DNA of 6,503 nt from NCBI GenBank assembly GCA_025774865.1, contig JALGZO010000524.1, positions 1 to 6,503 on the forward strand, read 5' to 3'. The translations under genes and the position numbers were made by a program. Under the pieces are notes generated by a model, which did not search any database, was not told the DNA's origin, and saw nothing but the letters and a program-made list of their open reading frames with translations. This document shows, in pieces, positions 1-6,128 of this stretch. This DNA comes from a bacterium (GTDB lineage Bacteria; ARS69). The number at the start of each line of letters is the position of its first letter. The stretch's first letter is position 1.

Positions 1-743
1 ACCATCATCTGCGCGAGCTTTCGCTCGTCCGTGTCGCCCGACCGCACCGTCTTCACTTGCCGGCCGCGCCTCATCACGGTCACGCGGTCGGCGTGATCCA
101 CCACCTCCGAGAGCTTGTGCGTGATGAACAGAATGGACGCCCCGTCCTCGGGGAGCCGTGGGCCGGTCAGCAGCAACGCCCGCGCTTCGCTCGGCGCGAG
201 CACCGCCGTCGGCTCATCGAGGATCAAGGTGCGCGCACCCCGGAGCAGCACCTTCAGAATCTCGAGCCGCTGCCGTTCCCCCACGGACAGGTCCTCGACG
301 CGAGCATCCGCATCGAGCGCCAGCCCGAAACGCTCGGCCGTGTCGCGCACCGCATCGCGCGCTGCTTCGCGATCGAGGAATATCCCGGCGCGACGTGGCT
401 CGTCTCCGAGCATCGCGTTCTCGATCACGGTGAACGGGGGAATCAACATGAAATGCTGATGCACCATCCCCACACCTCGGGCCAAGGCCTCGCGCGGGCT
501 CGATGGTGCGAACGGGCTCCCGCCGAGCGACATCGTGCCCGCATCGGGGACCGTGAGACCGTAGAGGATCCTCATGAGGGTGGACTTGCCCGCGCCGTTC
601 TCGCCCGCGATCGCGTGCAACTCGCCGGCAGACGCTTCGAAGTCCACGCCGTCGACGGCGACGACGCCGGGGTAGGCCTTCGTGATTCCGAGCATCGAGA
701 CGGCGGGTGCCGTGCCCCCGTTCGGCGCCGCCTCGACGCTCAC
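1..743 (-). CDS. BMP-type (nucleoside) ABC transporter ATP-binding protein, N-terminal domain, 3' truncated by window
   Basis: Cytoplasmic ATPase predicted to power import of the ligand caught by the BMP lipoprotein encoded just upstream. The 247 visible codons form one complete ABC domain: Walker A GENGAGKST (residues 47-55), Q-loop MVHQHF (Gln96), signature LSVGE (152-156), Walker B LILDEP (173-178) and switch His209 in FITHKL. The opening ITKAYPGVVAVDGVDF and the Q-loop HQHFML are typical of the YufO/NupO and RbsA-like ATPases, which carry two ABC domains in about 500 residues, so the second half should lie beyond position 1. I chose the GTG at 743-741, which overlaps the upstream TGA in the sequence GTGA and is in frame. 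A second possible start is the ATG at residue 17 (position 695); neither has a good Shine-Dalgarno, which suggests translational coupling. The family is secure, while the exact sugar or nucleoside substrate is inferred from the neighbour. Confidence 0.93.
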   Translation of the reverse strand, partial: MSVEAAPNGGTAPAVSMLGITKAYPGVVAVDGVDFEASAGELHAIAGENGAGKSTLMRILYGLTVPDAGTMSLGGSPFAPSSPREALARGVGMVHQHFMLIPPFTVIENAMLGDEPRRAGIFLDREAARDAVRDTAERFGLALDADARVEDLSVGERQRLEILKVLLRGARTLILDEPTAVLAPSEARALLLTGPRLPEDGASILFITHKLSEVVDHADRVTVMRRGRQVKTVRSGDTDERKLAQMM

Positions 744-1768
744 CGGCGGCCGGTTTCGAACGGCACGACGATTTCCCCCGCGACGATGGAATCTCGCAGG
801 GCCGTGGTGCGCTCCCGCATTTCGCCCGTGAGCAGCATCTCGTTGTGCTCGTCGATCGAGAAGCCCACCCCGTCTTCGGCCAGACCGAACTCGACCAGTC
901 CGCCCCGGAACTCGCCGGCCACTGCGTCGGCGATCACCGCGTAGAGTGCATTGTCGACGTGTTTGATCATCGAAGTCAGAACCGCCCCGGGAGCGACGCC
1001 GTTCTGGTTCGAGTCCACGCCGATCGCCAACTTGCCGCGCTCGCGTGCCGCCTCGATCACGCCGAGCCCCGTGACCCCGGCCGCGTGGAAGATCACGTCG
1101 GCGCCCTGCCCGATCTGGGAGAGCGCGATCTCCTTGCCGCGCACGGGGTCGGAGAACGCCTCCGGACGCACGCCCGCGTAACCGACGAGCACCGTCGCAT
1201 CCGGCCGCACGTGACCGACCCCGGCCTTGTAGCCCGCCTCGAACTTGTGGATGAGCGGAACGTCCATGCCCCCGACGAACCCCACCGTACCCGTTGTCGA
1301 CTTCATGGCCGCGAGGACACCCACGAGAAACGACCCCTCGTGCTCGCGAAACACGAGGGAGGCGACGTTGGCGACGCCGTCGAGATGACCGTCGACGAGG
1401 ACGAAGGAGACGTCCGGAAAGTCGCCCGCGACCGTACGGATGGCGTCCGTGAAGAGGAAACCGACGCCGATCACCACGTCGTACCCGCGCGCCGCGAGCT
1501 TGCGCAGGCCGACCTCCCGGTCCGCTCCCTGCCCCGGCTCGAAGTCCGTCACCTGGATCTGGAAGTCCCTCGCGGCCCGCGCGGTTCCTTCCCACGCCGA
1601 GTCGTTGAAGGACTTGTCGCCCTTGCCGCCGATGTCGAATACGAGCCCCACCCGGAATTCGCGACCCGTCTCGGCCTTCTCCCCGCTGCGCTCGCCCCCA
1701 CCACACGCCGCGAGGGAAAGCAGACAGAGGATACCGCTCCCCACCGTGGCGACCGCCCGCGTCCTCAC
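740..1768 (-). CDS. BMP/PnrA-family substrate-binding lipoprotein (probable purine nucleoside binder)
   Basis: Solute-binding lipoprotein of an ABC importer, 342 aa, a usual size for the family. The N-terminus has a short positive region (MRTR), a hydrophobic stretch and the lipobox LAAC with Cys22 as the lipidation site. The mature part begins with the BMP hallmark VGLVFDIGGKGDKSFN (residues 40-55) followed by SAWEG. Further conserved blocks are VGFVGGMDVPLIHKFEAGY (162-180), GADVIFHAAGVTGLG (222-236) and GVDSNQNGVAPG (250-261) with TSMIKHVDNA. Relatives such as Treponema PnrA bind purine nucleosides; that specificity here is inferred from family and context. I chose the GTG at 1768-1766, which overlaps the upstream TGA by 4 bp and sits directly before the signal peptide. 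An open frame runs 58 codons further upstream, but that part is Arg/Gly-rich, lies inside the amidohydrolase gene and would bury the signal peptide. The stop overlaps the ABC ATPase start. Confidence 0.93.
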   Translation of the reverse strand: MRTRAVATVGSGILCLLSLAACGGGERSGEKAETGREFRVGLVFDIGGKGDKSFNDSAWEGTARAARDFQIQVTDFEPGQGADREVGLRKLAARGYDVVIGVGFLFTDAIRTVAGDFPDVSFVLVDGHLDGVANVASLVFREHEGSFLVGVLAAMKSTTGTVGFVGGMDVPLIHKFEAGYKAGVGHVRPDATVLVGYAGVRPEAFSDPVRGKEIALSQIGQGADVIFHAAGVTGLGVIEAARERGKLAIGVDSNQNGVAPGAVLTSMIKHVDNALYAVIADAVAGEFRGGLVEFGLAEDGVGFSIDEHNEMLLTGEMRERTTALRDSIVAGEIVVPFETGRR

Positions 1769-3126
1769 GACACTGCACCCGGTCGGAGGCGAGGTACCTC
1801 CGGGGCCGCGCGCTCCCGCGCTCGTTGAGCTTGCTTCTCGGCCTCGCGAACGATCGCGGGCGCATCCATCCGAACGGCCTGTCCGCTCTCCACCAGCACC
1901 TCCCCCGACACGAGCACGTGGCGCACGTCGCCGGCCCGGCACGAGTACACGAGCGCGGTCAGCGGGTCCGCGACCGGGGTCGCGTGCGGGGTGTGGAGAT
2001 CGACGGCAATGACGTCGGCATCCTTGCCGGGCTCCAGCCGACCGATCCGGTCATCCCAGCCGAGCGCCTCCGCCCCCCCGAGGGTCGCCATCGTGAGGAC
2101 ATCCGGCGCGGTCAACGAGCCCGGCCCCGACTTCAGCTGCGCGAGCCGCGCCGCCGCCCGCATTTCGGCGAAACCGTCGAGCCCGTTGTTGGCGGGCGCT
2201 CCGTCACACCCGATCGACACGTGCACTCCCGCGTCGCGGAGACGCCCCACCTCGCAGATCCCCGAGCCGAGCTTCAAGTTCGTGTGCGGGCAATGCAGTG
2301 CGCGTGACCCGCTCGTCGCGAGGCATTCCACCTCGCGGTCCGAGAGCCATACGCAGTGGGCGAGCAGCGTCCGCGGCCCGAGAAAACCGACGTCTTCGAA
2401 GTACTCGATGTTGCGGCGCCCCTTGAGCCGTTCCACGACATCGGTCTCGTTGGAGTTCTCCGACGCGTGCGTGTGCAGGAGGTATCGATCCTTCGCCAAG
2501 GACACGACCTCTCGAAAGAGAATGTCCGAGCACGAGAGCACGAACCGCGGCGCGAACGCATAACGCAACCGTCCGTCGGCGGCCCCGTCCCAACGCTCCG
2601 CCAGGTCGAAGCTCTCGCGCAGCGAGTCGAGCGTCGTCTCGAGAAGGCCGACGGGCACTCCCTCGCCCTCGTCCATCATCGCCTTCCCGCTCGCCGCCCG
2701 CAGGCCGGTTCGCTCGAGCGTCTCGAACACGACACCGTGGTGGTGGGTCGTTCCCATGTCGAGAATGGTCGTGGTACCGCCGAGGAGGAGCTCGAGGATC
2801 GAAAGCTCGACGGACGCGCGCAAACTGTCGGGATCGTGCGCGGCTTCCAGCGGCCAGATACACTCGCGGAGCCACGGCAGAAGGGACCGGTCCTCGGCGA
2901 GGCCGCGAAACAACGTCTGGCAGAGATGCACGTGCGTCTGCACGAGACCGGGCATCAGCGTGAGCCCGGAGGCATCCACGACCCGCGCCCCGGGTGCCCT
3001 CGCGGCGAGGTCGCCGCCGACCGCCTGGATCGACCCGTCGCGGATCAGGAGGTCGCCCGAGGCCTCTTCCCAGGCGGGACCTCCCAGCAGAATGCGTTCC
3101 GCTCCCGTCAGGAGCACGACGCTCAT
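1765..3126 (-). CDS. COG0402 amidohydrolase, probable nucleoside/purine deaminase (5'-deoxyadenosine / SAH / MTA deaminase-like)
   Basis: Metal-dependent hydrolase expected to deaminate an adenosine- or guanine-type compound in the cytoplasm. The 453 aa cover the whole family fold. The N-terminal beta region ends in LMPGLVQTHVHLCQTLFRG, whose His65-x-His67 pair binds metal. HTHASE (218-223) holds His220 and the substrate-side Glu223, LAHCVW holds His257, and GCDGAP holds Asp308, completing a single-metal set. The C-terminal GRLEPGKDADVIAVDL returns to the small beta domain. The block HLCQTLFRGLA followed by IWPLEAAH (90-97) is what I recall from proteins annotated as 5'-deoxyadenosine or SAH/MTA deaminases, and differs from E. 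coli SsnA and 8-oxoguanine deaminase. The ATG at 3126-3124 overlaps the carbamate kinase TGA as ATGA and has GGAG 5 nt upstream (3135-3132). The C-terminal tail after about residue 425 is charged and may be dispensable. The superfamily is secure, but the substrate is not. Confidence 0.9.
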   Translation of the reverse strand: MSVVLLTGAERILLGGPAWEEASGDLLIRDGSIQAVGGDLAARAPGARVVDASGLTLMPGLVQTHVHLCQTLFRGLAEDRSLLPWLRECIWPLEAAHDPDSLRASVELSILELLLGGTTTILDMGTTHHHGVVFETLERTGLRAASGKAMMDEGEGVPVGLLETTLDSLRESFDLAERWDGAADGRLRYAFAPRFVLSCSDILFREVVSLAKDRYLLHTHASENSNETDVVERLKGRRNIEYFEDVGFLGPRTLLAHCVWLSDREVECLATSGSRALHCPHTNLKLGSGICEVGRLRDAGVHVSIGCDGAPANNGLDGFAEMRAAARLAQLKSGPGSLTAPDVLTMATLGGAEALGWDDRIGRLEPGKDADVIAVDLHTPHATPVADPLTALVYSCRAGDVRHVLVSGEVLVESGQAVRMDAPAIVREAEKQAQRARERAAPEVPRLRPGAVS

Positions 3127-4091
3127 TCCCGCTCCGGCTCCTGTTCGTGGTCGATGATCCGCGGATGGATGTGGGTCCCGGCTCGGCCTTCGACGGCGGC
3201 GAGAAGCTTCTGCGGCGACGTGATAATCGCTTCCTCCCCGCCGTGCCCTACGAAATCGATCGCGGCCTCGATCTTCGGCCCCATGCTCCCACTCGGAAAC
3301 TGACCTTCACGCAGGTAGCCGGCGGCTTCCGCCGCCGACATCTCGGGAAGGCCCCGCTGCGTCGGCTGGCCGAAATCGAGCGAAACCCGATCGACGCTGG
3401 TCAGCGCGATCAGTCGCCGGGCGCGGAGCTGCTTGGCGAGCACGGCGGCGGCACGATCCTTGTCGATGACCGCCTCGACGCCGCGGAGCTTCCCTTCGCG
3501 TCTCACCACCGGCACACCGCCGCCGCCCGCCGCGATGACGACCATACCCGACGCGACGAGACTGCGGACCGCGTCCCACTCCACGATCTCGACCGGTCGC
3601 GGCGAGGGGACCACGCGCCGCCAGCCGCGCCCCGCATCGTCCACGAGCGCCCACCCCTTGGAGCGCTCGAGGTAGAGTGCCTCCTCGCGCGAGTAGAACT
3701 GGCCGATGGGCTTCGTCGGTTTGGCGAAGGCCGGATCTTCTTCGTCGACGACGCACTGCGTCACGATCGAGACGACCCGGCAGCGAATCCCGCGCGCGCT
3801 CAGCGAATTGTCCAGAACCTGCTGAAGCAGGTAGCCGATGCCCCCCTGCGAGTCGGCGCCGCAAACGTCCAGCGGCATCGGCGGAATCTGGTCTCGGGCG
3901 GCCTCGTTCCGGATGAGGATGTTCCCGACGATCGGCCCGTTCCCGTGGGAGAGCACTACTTCTTCGTTCGCGTGGGCGATGAGCTCGGCGACCCCCTCCA
4001 TCGCCCGGGACGCGATGAGGAACTGCTCCTCGAACGTACCCGTGCCCCGTTCGGGTAGCAGGGCGTTCCCGCCAAGCGTGATGACATTCAT
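3123..4091 (-). CDS. arcC: Carbamate kinase
   Basis: Catalyses carbamoyl phosphate + ADP to carbamate + ATP, the energy-yielding end of arginine, agmatine or purine breakdown. The product is 322 aa, slightly longer than the usual 310-316. All hallmark blocks are present in order: GGNALL (7-12), SHGNGPIVG (48-56), CGADSQGGIGYLL (77-89), KPTKPIGQFY with Lys127 (124-133), VVPSPRP (160-166), AAGGGGVPVV (187-196), GVEAVIDKDRAAAVLA with the Asp-Lys-Asp at 210-212, and GSMGPKIEAA with Lys273 (268-277). The three lysines match the conserved active-site lysines of the family. There is no frame damage. I chose the ATG at 4091, since the protein begins there with the family's usual first beta strand; the open frame runs 23 codons upstream into yqeC but adds nothing family-like. 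The gap to yqeC is 10 nt and has no clear Shine-Dalgarno. No arginine deiminase or ornithine carbamoyltransferase is adjacent, so a purine or allantoin route is more likely than the classic arc pathway. Confidence 0.96.
   Translation of the reverse strand: MNVITLGGNALLPERGTGTFEEQFLIASRAMEGVAELIAHANEEVVLSHGNGPIVGNILIRNEAARDQIPPMPLDVCGADSQGGIGYLLQQVLDNSLSARGIRCRVVSIVTQCVVDEEDPAFAKPTKPIGQFYSREEALYLERSKGWALVDDAGRGWRRVVPSPRPVEIVEWDAVRSLVASGMVVIAAGGGGVPVVRREGKLRGVEAVIDKDRAAAVLAKQLRARRLIALTSVDRVSLDFGQPTQRGLPEMSAAEAAGYLREGQFPSGSMGPKIEAAIDFVGHGGEEAIITSPQKLLAAVEGRAGTHIHPRIIDHEQEPERE
3132..3142 (-). promoter_or_regulatory. Ribosome binding site of the amidohydrolase, inside the carbamate kinase 3' end
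   Basis: The minus strand carries AGGAG (3142-3138) and GGAG (3135-3132); the latter is 5 nt before the ATG at 3126. It supports that start and makes this the only overlapping junction in the operon with a recognisable Shine-Dalgarno. Confidence 0.6.
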
Positions 4092-4101
4092 CGAAAGGGA
4101 A

Positions 4102-4962
4102 TCACGCTGCTCCCGATTCGGCGACGAACGCTTCCACCAGTCCGCCCTGGCGGTTGTCACCGACGGCCACGCGACGAATCCGCGAACCGCACCGCTCGAG
4201 GATCGAGTTTGCCAAGCGATTCGCCGATTTGTGATCGCGACCCAGCGGGGCCTTGTTTACGTAGACCAGCAATTCGATGTCGCCAGGGATCTTGCTGAGC
4301 AATCCTCGCGGATGGGTGAGTAGATCGACGACGCGGTCGGCGGTGAGCTTCTCGCCCCACGCTACTCCGAGAAGATCCTGAATCACTTCCGGACGGTGGC
4401 AGTGATCGGTGTTCACGTGGGTCTCGATGCCGTCCGCCCCGATCACGACGACGCAGTGCGTCGCGCAAAGCGGCACGACGGGCTCGCCGAGACGATGTCC
4501 CTTGATCGACCGCCCGCGACTTCCGTCGGCCTCGACAATGACGACGTCCCAGGTCAGCCTCGAGAGGAGCTCGCCGAGGTAGTCCGAAGGCAGACCGATC
4601 AGCTTGTTACGGATGATCGAGCGGCCCAAGAATGTCATCGGGGAGGACACATCACCCGAGGCGCCCCCCAGAAAATCGTCGATCCAGGTCCCGCCCCCCC
4701 GGTTGCCCCCGCGGTAGCTGCGCCAGGTCTGTCCGGTCGTGTCCATCTCGTCCCAGAGGAGCACGTCGCGTACGTCCGCGAGCTCCTCCAGCTTCATGCG
4801 TGCCGTCGTGGTGGCCAGCACCCGACGCCCTTCGCGAGCGGATTCGTGACAGAGGCGCACGAGAGTCGAGGTCTTCCCTCCGCCGCCCACGAGCGCGATT
4901 ACCGAGCCCTTCCGGATCCCGAACGCCTCCGACAGCGTGAGAAAATCCTTCGTCACGATCAC
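4102..4962 (-). CDS. yqeC: YqeC-family P-loop protein, selenium-dependent hydroxylase accessory protein
   Basis: Putative nucleotide-binding maturation factor for selenium-dependent molybdenum hydroxylases (purine or xanthine hydroxylases with labile selenium). Its biochemical role is not established; the link rests on published co-occurrence of yqeB/yqeC with orphan selD. The 286 aa protein opens with VIALVGGGGKTS (21-32), a P-loop with Lys30, then ATTTARM (50-56), a second family block. VIVEADGSRGRSIKGH (141-156) is the most diagnostic stretch, followed by PVVP (161-164), VVVIGADG (171-178) and LVYVNKAPLG (232-241), which resembles a G-protein-like NKxD site in altered form. Residues 80-105 are Gly-rich and look longer than in E. 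coli YqeC (about 256 aa). The start is a GTG at 4962-4960 overlapping the aminotransferase TGA as GTGA; a second in-frame GTG lies at residue 3. It is immediately followed by carbamate kinase, the same pairing as the E. coli yqeA-yqeB-yqeC region. Confidence 0.88.
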   Translation of the reverse strand: MIVTKDFLTLSEAFGIRKGSVIALVGGGGKTSTLVRLCHESAREGRRVLATTTARMKLEELADVRDVLLWDEMDTTGQTWRSYRGGNRGGGTWIDDFLGGASGDVSSPMTFLGRSIIRNKLIGLPSDYLGELLSRLTWDVVIVEADGSRGRSIKGHRLGEPVVPLCATHCVVVIGADGIETHVNTDHCHRPEVIQDLLGVAWGEKLTADRVVDLLTHPRGLLSKIPGDIELLVYVNKAPLGRDHKSANRLANSILERCGSRIRRVAVGDNRQGGLVEAFVAESGAA

Positions 4963-6128
4963 GAGACTCGCTGCAACACGTTCTCGATCATGCCGAGCGC
5001 CCTCTCGATGTTATCCAGCGAGTTCGCGTAGGAGAGTCTGAGGTACCCTTCACCCTGTGGCCCGAAGGACGTACCCGCGAGCGTCGCCACGCCGCCCTCG
5101 TCGAGGAGACGGTCCTGGAGCTCCTCCGATGTCATGCCGAGCTCGCTGATGTTGGGGAACACGTAGAACGCTCCCTTCGGCTTCAAACAGCGAAAACCCT
5201 CGATCGCGTTCAGACCGTCGACGATCCGATCTCGACGCCGCCGAAACTCGGACACCATCTCCGCCGGCCGGTCCTGGGGACCGCGCAGTGCTTCCACCCC
5301 GGCCATCTGCGTGAAGCTCGCCGTGCAAGAGTTCGAGTTCGTCATGAGACGCGACACGTGAGGCTCGAGATCCTTCGGCATGATCCCGTAACCGAGTCGC
5401 CAGCCCGTCATGGCGTAGCTCTTGGAGAACCCGTCCACGACGATCGTACGATCCAGCATGCCGGGGAACTGGGTGATCGACTCGAAGGCTTCCTCGTACA
5501 CGATCTTCGAGTAGATCTCGTCCGCGAGCACCCAGAAGTCGTGCCGCTCGGCGAGCTCCGCGATCCCCCGGAGATCGTCATGGCTGAGCATCGAACCGCA
5601 GGGGTTGTGCGGCGAGTTGATGATCACCATCTTCGTCTTGTCGGTGATCCGCGCCTCGAGATCCGCGAGATCGAAGGTGAAGTCCCGGTCCTCGCGCAGC
5701 GGGAGAGGCACCGGCTTCGCCCCGAAGAAGTCGATGACCGATTGGTAGATCGGGAACCCGGGATCGGGGTAGATGACCTCTTCGCCCGGATTCACGCACG
5801 CGATGACCGAGTAGAAGAGGATCGGCTTCGCCCCCGGCGTGATCACCACGTTCTCGGGGCCGACGGAAACGCGGCGTTCCTTCGAGAAGGACTCTGCGAT
5901 CGCCTCGCGGGCCGGCGGCAGCCCGGCCGAGGGCCCGTAGTGAGTGAAGCCTTCGCGCAGGGCGTCGGCGCCCGCCTCGACGATGTTGGGCGGGGTGTCG
6001 AAATCTGGCTCGCCGATCTCCAGATGAACGACTTCGCGGCCCCGGGCTTCCAACTTCTTGGCCCGGGCGAGGATCTCAAAGGCCGTCTCGGTACCGAGTC
6101 CGGCCATTCTTCGGGCAATGCGCTCCAT
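4959..6128 (-). CDS. Class I/II PLP-dependent aminotransferase (aspartate/alanine aminotransferase-like)
   Basis: Cytoplasmic fold-type I aminotransferase, 389 aa, full length for the family. Visible landmarks are HLEIGEPDFDTP (35-46, substrate loop), THYGPSAGLPPAREAIA (62-78), the cofactor-binding stretch ITPGAKPILF (96-105), NSPHNPCG with Asn175 (171-178), DEIYSKIVY (203-211), SKSYAMTGWRLGY with the PLP lysine Lys236 (235-247), and YLRLSYA with Arg364, which should bind the substrate carboxylate. These support an aspartate or alanine/2-oxo acid type enzyme, but specificity cannot be read from the sequence. The ATG at 6128 is preceded by TGGAGGA with an 8-nt spacer, by far the best ribosome binding site in the window. 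An open frame extends 120 codons upstream but is Arg/Pro/Gly-rich and runs against a better-looking frame, so I rejected it. As first gene of the operon, it may act on an amino or oxo acid product of the purine route, for example glyoxylate or alanine; this is inference. Confidence 0.94.
   Translation of the reverse strand: MERIARRMAGLGTETAFEILARAKKLEARGREVVHLEIGEPDFDTPPNIVEAGADALREGFTHYGPSAGLPPAREAIAESFSKERRVSVGPENVVITPGAKPILFYSVIACVNPGEEVIYPDPGFPIYQSVIDFFGAKPVPLPLREDRDFTFDLADLEARITDKTKMVIINSPHNPCGSMLSHDDLRGIAELAERHDFWVLADEIYSKIVYEEAFESITQFPGMLDRTIVVDGFSKSYAMTGWRLGYGIMPKDLEPHVSRLMTNSNSCTASFTQMAGVEALRGPQDRPAEMVSEFRRRRDRIVDGLNAIEGFRCLKPKGAFYVFPNISELGMTSEELQDRLLDEGGVATLAGTSFGPQGEGYLRLSYANSLDNIERALGMIENVLQRVS

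Follow-up and report, generated by a model that had tools for sequence, protein, structure and literature searches.

We analysed a 6,503-base stretch of DNA from an uncultured sediment bacterium (the window), which is the entire contig C528 of genome G000, and found on it a six-gene operon that includes YqeC, a carbamate kinase and a COG0402 deaminase. In our judgement this operon probably covers uptake, entry and the recovery of ATP in an anaerobic purine degradation route whose remaining genes are found at other places in the genome. Support for purine catabolism is good: G000 encodes almost all of the 'reductive uric acid pathway' known from E. coli and C. difficile. The system varies a pathway already known, in a phylum that has hardly been studied, and is a useful exception to the rule that links such genes to selenium. 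The genome itself comprises 4.7 Mb in 785 contigs (92.65% complete, 8.3% contamination) and was compared with four further genomes of its family (G001-G004), the next nearest genomes sharing the domain only. G003 is ~100% complete and 1% contaminated, G001 and G004 are 67% and 82% complete, and G002 and G003 belong to genera different from that of the window.

The operon lies on the minus strand and begins with a class I/II pyridoxal phosphate (PLP) aminotransferase (4959..6128; PF00155, E 8.9e-76). It continues with YqeC (4102..4962; PF19842, 110.7 bits against a cut-off of 27.6, and TIGR03172, 138.9 against 73.05), the carbamate kinase (3123..4091; TIGR00746, 373.8 against 358.25) and the deaminase (1765..3126; Amidohydro_1, E 4.5e-61), which is nearest to PRK07228. 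A BMP/PnrA-type substrate-binding lipoprotein with the lipobox LSLAAC (740..1768; PF02608, E 8e-70) and an ATP-binding cassette (ABC) transporter ATPase truncated by the contig end (3..743; PF00005, E 2.1e-30) complete the unit. At four of the five junctions the genes overlap by 4 nt, kinase and deaminase among them; the exception is the 10-nt gap between the YqeC stop and the kinase ATG. A first-pass annotation of the same DNA had described YqeC, kinase and deaminase as three consecutive, translationally linked genes forming an operon; their coordinates, families and linkage were all confirmed, but the unit had been understated, as it also takes in the aminotransferase, the lipoprotein and the ATPase. 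All six genes occur in the same order in G002 and G003, with protein identities of 62-81%, and G004, of a further genus, retains the deaminase-BMP-ABC part, which reaches both ends of its contig. This linkage and conserved order are well beyond chance.

The partners that a purine catabolic operon was predicted to have were found elsewhere in the genome, namely Se_dep_XDH, an SsnA-like protein, YgeW (in two pieces), YgeY and a dihydropyrimidinase, and a genome-wide search for molybdenum hydroxylases and selD recovered both. On contig C709, a fused iron-sulfur (FeS)/molybdenum hydroxylase scores above the equivalog cut-off of Se_dep_XDH, a xanthine dehydrogenase (XDH) model (935.6 vs 830.45 bits), and is overlapped by the SsnA-like gene, followed by two PALP-fold enzymes and by a convergent C-terminal part of YgeW at the contig end. 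The C-terminal part of a YgfK-like protein, YgeY (575.7 bits against a cut-off of 321.5) and the N-terminal part of YgeW are encoded on contig C134. As the two YgeW pieces correspond to residues 1-232 and 239-384 of E. coli YgeW, these contigs very probably abut. The pieces are 60-62% and YgeY 57% identical to their E. coli counterparts. In G003, a single piece of sequence holds XDH, SsnA-like and both PALP genes, followed on the opposite strand by YgeW (581-606 bits, over its cut-offs), YgeY and the YgfK-like gene, and Se_dep_XDH again exceeds its equivalog cut-off; in G002, a three-subunit XDH (XdhA/FeS/FAD) lies directly upstream of YgfK-like, YgeY and YgeW genes. The dihydropyrimidinase, a D-hydantoinase (542 bits against a cut-off of 393), is the sole hydantoinase over its cut-off.

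A similar picture emerges for the recovery of ATP from carbamoyl phosphate. A search for carbamate kinases across the family returned exactly one in each of G000, G002 and G003, in every case the operon's own (45% identical to E. coli YqeA in the window), while G001 yielded no more than a fragment with 44% identity to the kinase of the window. The census of the ornithine carbamoyltransferase (OTCase) family comprised one ornithine-type enzyme, YgeW, and enzymes adjoining dihydroorotase-like genes that we assigned to the pyrB type by match strength and position. Two such OTCase and dihydroorotase-like pairs occur in G000 (on C218 and C634), one of which may be bin contamination. YgeW is the sole obvious source of carbamoyl phosphate in G000, and its E. 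coli counterpart supplies the carbamoyl phosphate from which ATP is made (PMC12507026). With a single kinase per genome, a limited set of carbamoyltransferases and this precedent in E. coli, the ATP-recovery step has a concrete supplier, and the earlier proposal of ATP recovery gains support from the presence of the sole carbamate kinase and YgeW in the same genome.

Purine nucleosides are bound by known members of the BMP/PnrA-type transporters, and by family the transporter of the operon would import these. The deaminase would then strip the exocyclic amino group, the base would be released, and a molybdenum hydroxylase would convert it to urate. The second cluster (Se_dep_XDH/XdhD-type enzyme, short YgfK, SsnA-like protein, dihydropyrimidinase, YgeY and YgeW) would take urate to 2,3-diaminopropionate and carbamoyl phosphate, a route worked out in E. 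coli (PMC12507026). The operon's kinase would convert the YgeW-derived carbamoyl phosphate to ATP, and YqeC would assist the maturation of one molybdenum hydroxylase, without YqeB. In this scheme the genes, their order, their conservation and the partner genes are observed, while the substrates, the flow between clusters and the action of YqeC are proposed. The first-pass annotation had envisaged a sequence of deamination, selenium-dependent oxidation and ATP recovery; purine catabolism and ATP recovery survive from it, but the XdhD-type enzyme of the pathway as characterised does not oxidise the deaminase product: it reduces uric acid, giving yanthine (PMC12507026). Moreover, as carbamoyl phosphate arises from YgeW, far downstream in the route (PMC12507026), deaminase and kinase would act at its opposite ends.

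The earlier view that the deaminase is not SsnA was correct, given that SsnA models score it at 143-146 bits (145.6 of 455.5 for one of them) against cut-offs of 444-455. The 5'-deoxyadenosine deaminase model of PRK07228 (NF005557) ranks first, with 513.8 bits in the window and 524.6 for the G003 orthologue against a cut-off of 522, followed by N-ethylammeline chlorohydrolase/TRZ-ATZ-type models and then by 8-oxoguanine and guanine deaminases; identity is 33% to E. coli GuaD vs 26% to SsnA. The metal ligands (HxH, H, H, D) can be read in the sequence. With modest confidence, we take a purine nucleoside to be the likeliest substrate. The top-ranked family also invites a different account, namely that the deaminase serves to recycle side products of radical-SAM (S-adenosylmethionine) enzymes, 5'-deoxyadenosine or compounds like it, that the operon serves general nucleoside salvage, and that YqeC and the kinase are chance neighbours. 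We consider this unlikely, as the gene order is overlapping and conserved, the kinase has no evident partner except YgeW, and the family name is an annotation and not an assay of the window protein. Nothing informative came from the deaminase neighbours on plasmids of Paenibacillus and Halopiger.

Several points weigh against the purine-degradation scheme. The substrate of the deaminase is not fixed by sequence. Operon and XDH/YgeW cluster lie on separate contigs, even in G003, so that the link between them consists of pathway logic and co-occurrence. The SsnA-like protein has SsnA as its best match (262 bits, 38% identity) but stays under the cut-off of 444 and is short at both the N- and C-terminus. 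YgeX, the diaminopropionate ammonia-lyase, has no clear match, as the resemblance of the two PALP proteins to it is weak (23% identity over part of YgeX for one of them) or absent. The hydantoinase adjoins an aldehyde dehydrogenase, an amidase-like protein and a two-protein dihydropyrimidine-dehydrogenase-like pair, and by its gene content this operon would be one of reductive pyrimidine degradation, although the enzyme may serve both the pyrimidine and the urate route. No YqeC was found in G001 and G004, at 67% and 82% completeness. Finally, the 8.3% contamination of the G000 bin raises the worry that the two clusters were joined by binning; this is answered by G003, which carries both.

Two observations accompany the XDH cluster. 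In two genera, the SsnA-like protein (L052:8907-9986, L061:4437-5543) lacks the stretch N-terminal to the metal-binding HxH, and its match to SsnA is limited to ~270 residues. Beside the cluster there is also a conserved 498-aa PALP-fold enzyme (L052:9996-11492), whose similarity to named families is marginal (35.2 bits, at the Pfam cut-off) and which is a possible stand-in for YgeX.

This leads to the question of selenium. Haft and Self treated TIGR03309 (YqeB) as the strict marker of selenium-dependent molybdenum hydroxylases and TIGR03172 (YqeC) as a candidate (PMC2276186), and later work accepts solely the co-occurrence of YqeB and YqeC as a marker (PMC5029168). At E <= 0.001, YqeB was detected in none of the five family genomes (G000-G004), the ~100% complete G003 included, with positive controls in E. 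coli, G026, G029 and G052; co-occurrence of the two markers is thus not seen in the family. The possibility that YqeB is hidden by fusion to XdhC was considered as well and excluded in the four relatives, where XdhC is a stand-alone protein of ~300-330 aa whose alignment to E. coli YqeB is confined to the XdhC part of the latter; in G000 itself, a contig end truncates the XdhC gene. SelD is present in G000 (369.5 bits), G001, G003 and G004. The selD gene of G000 (contig C477, L053:1321-2355) has one in-frame TGA, as do those of the other selD-positive relatives searched, and SelD is itself probably a selenoprotein. As selA accompanies selD in G000 and selD contains this TGA, SelD is not specific to a selenium cofactor and is explained by selenocysteine. 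We also dropped an argument against selenium from G002, where YqeC occurs without SelD, since the presence of selA there makes the missing selD probably an assembly gap.

The selenium-dependent hydroxylase of the first-pass annotation therefore stands in part: the YqeC marker, SelD and Se_dep_XDH speak for it, while the absence of YqeB, the selenocysteine explanation of SelD and mutant data from C. difficile speak against it. In C. difficile, deletion of yqeB abolishes growth on urate and xanthine and deletion of yqeC has no clear phenotype, yet complementation of the double mutant hints that YqeC still matters (PMC11448449). The name Se_dep_XDH rests on similarity, and the G000 protein is equally close to E. 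coli XdhD and XdhA (28-30% identity), residue E606 of XdhD falling in an insertion not present in it. A true selenium-dependent system would sharpen the purine reading and not oppose it: YqeC would help to place labile selenium, from the selenophosphate made by SelD, in Se_dep_XDH. YqeC and, in both G000 and G003, Se_dep_XDH pass their cut-offs and SelD is widespread in the family, but YqeB is missing with controls working, the XdhC-like genes match just its XdhC part, and selenocysteine needs SelD regardless. On balance, we regard the use of a selenium cofactor here as rather doubtful, a judgement that covers the selenium claim itself.

On the other hand, YqeC may serve the maturation of an ordinary sulfur-type molybdenum hydroxylase, or another nucleotide-dependent step, with no labile selenium at all. 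This, too, we rate as less likely than not. It would fit the persistence of YqeC (61-70% conserved within the family) where YqeB is missing, as well as the lack of a clear yqeC phenotype in C. difficile, but must contend with the Se_dep_XDH match and with the double-mutant complementation. A genome of another family, G035 (C84:9948-10544), likewise points this way, with YqeC and selD and no YqeB detected, although it is just 86% complete. Slightly short of an even chance, in our estimate, is the broader proposition that, with no part for YqeB at all, YqeC assists a uric acid enzyme of the Se_dep_XDH type, be it by YqeB-free selenium insertion or in a selenium-free role in molybdenum hydroxylase maturation. 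The natural separation of YqeC from YqeB makes the function of YqeC testable, as a selenium factor versus a general molybdenum hydroxylase factor.

The 286-aa protein of the window is a YqeC by both family models, as the first-pass annotation had proposed, with 26.6% identity to E. coli YqeC and a GTG at 4956 as a second candidate start. Five diverse YqeC sequences share the core residues of the P-loop GGGGKT (G26, G28, G29, K30, T31) together with an EADG motif and an NK pair at residues 236-237, the NK motif being lost in G026 and G029. A search of the PDB by sequence returned just a resemblance to FtsY in the P-loop (E ~0.01), and an AlphaFold model (two sequences; predicted local distance difference test score, pLDDT, 58; predicted template-modelling score, pTM, 0.65) compared with the PDB by Foldseek gave no trustworthy match. 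For YqeC, a role as a nucleotide-dependent maturation factor is plausible. Named genomes scanned with the YqeC family alignment yielded one locus, that on G002's contig.

In E. coli K-12, yqeA (the kinase), yqeB, yqeC, xdh, ygeWXY, ssnA and guaD all lie in one region, xdhABC/ygeWXY-hyuA-yqeA-yqeB-yqeC-mocA-ygfK-ssnA-ygfM-xdhD/guaD, which encodes the reductive uric acid pathway (PMC12507026). G000 shares with it the kinase near YqeC, YgeW, YgeY, YgfK-like and SsnA-like proteins and a fused FeS/Mo hydroxylase, but its genes are split over two loci, without YqeB, a clear YgeX or a dedicated HyuA, and its YgfK is short; furthermore, the window has a nucleoside-type importer adjoining a deaminase of a subgroup other than GuaD and SsnA. 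Like the clostridial variant (C. difficile UacX type; PMC12507026), the family has an XDH without an adjoining FAD subunit, and its YgfK-like protein matches no more than the N-terminal half of YgfK (398.8 of 835.3 bits), with C-terminal 4Fe-4S domains replacing the FAD half, which by analogy suggests ferredoxin as electron donor. The short YgfK proteins (L087:5992-8058, L061:10994-12943) have these domains after the N-terminal half, as in the clostridial ferredoxin-type variant. Unlike that variant, the family keeps YgeW and carbamate kinase, whose place is taken in C. difficile by the hydrolase UacY, and has no YqeB. The system of Haft and Self (2008; PMC2276186) is matched in TIGR03172, SelD and molybdenum hydroxylases, but not in its defining marker TIGR03309, and SelD is not an orphan here.

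The family relative M3-44_Bin_119 (G002), a metagenome-assembled genome, was placed by Gong et al. in the proposed phylum Orphanbacterota, found mostly in the Bohai Sea, in a study in which purines go unmentioned (PMC9727166), and from this placement we infer the same phylum for the window. Orphanbacterota is not among the phyla named in a 2025 survey of SsnA (PMC12507026). These findings carry the recently solved anaerobic uric acid route into a poorly known phylum of bacteria from marine sediments. A search for viral contigs found none.

Among the remaining features, the window's aminotransferase exceeded no equivalog cut-off in NCBIfam, and neither a sigma-70-like promoter nor a terminator was found in the region upstream of it. 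Its orthologues in G002 and G003 occupy the same position and are 75-81% identical. In G003, two BPD_transp_2 permeases follow the ATPase gene, a glycosyltransferase-like gene (L044:7296-8060) is inserted between the BMP lipoprotein and ATPase genes, and a class III aminotransferase (L044:13623-14918) lies upstream of the operon.

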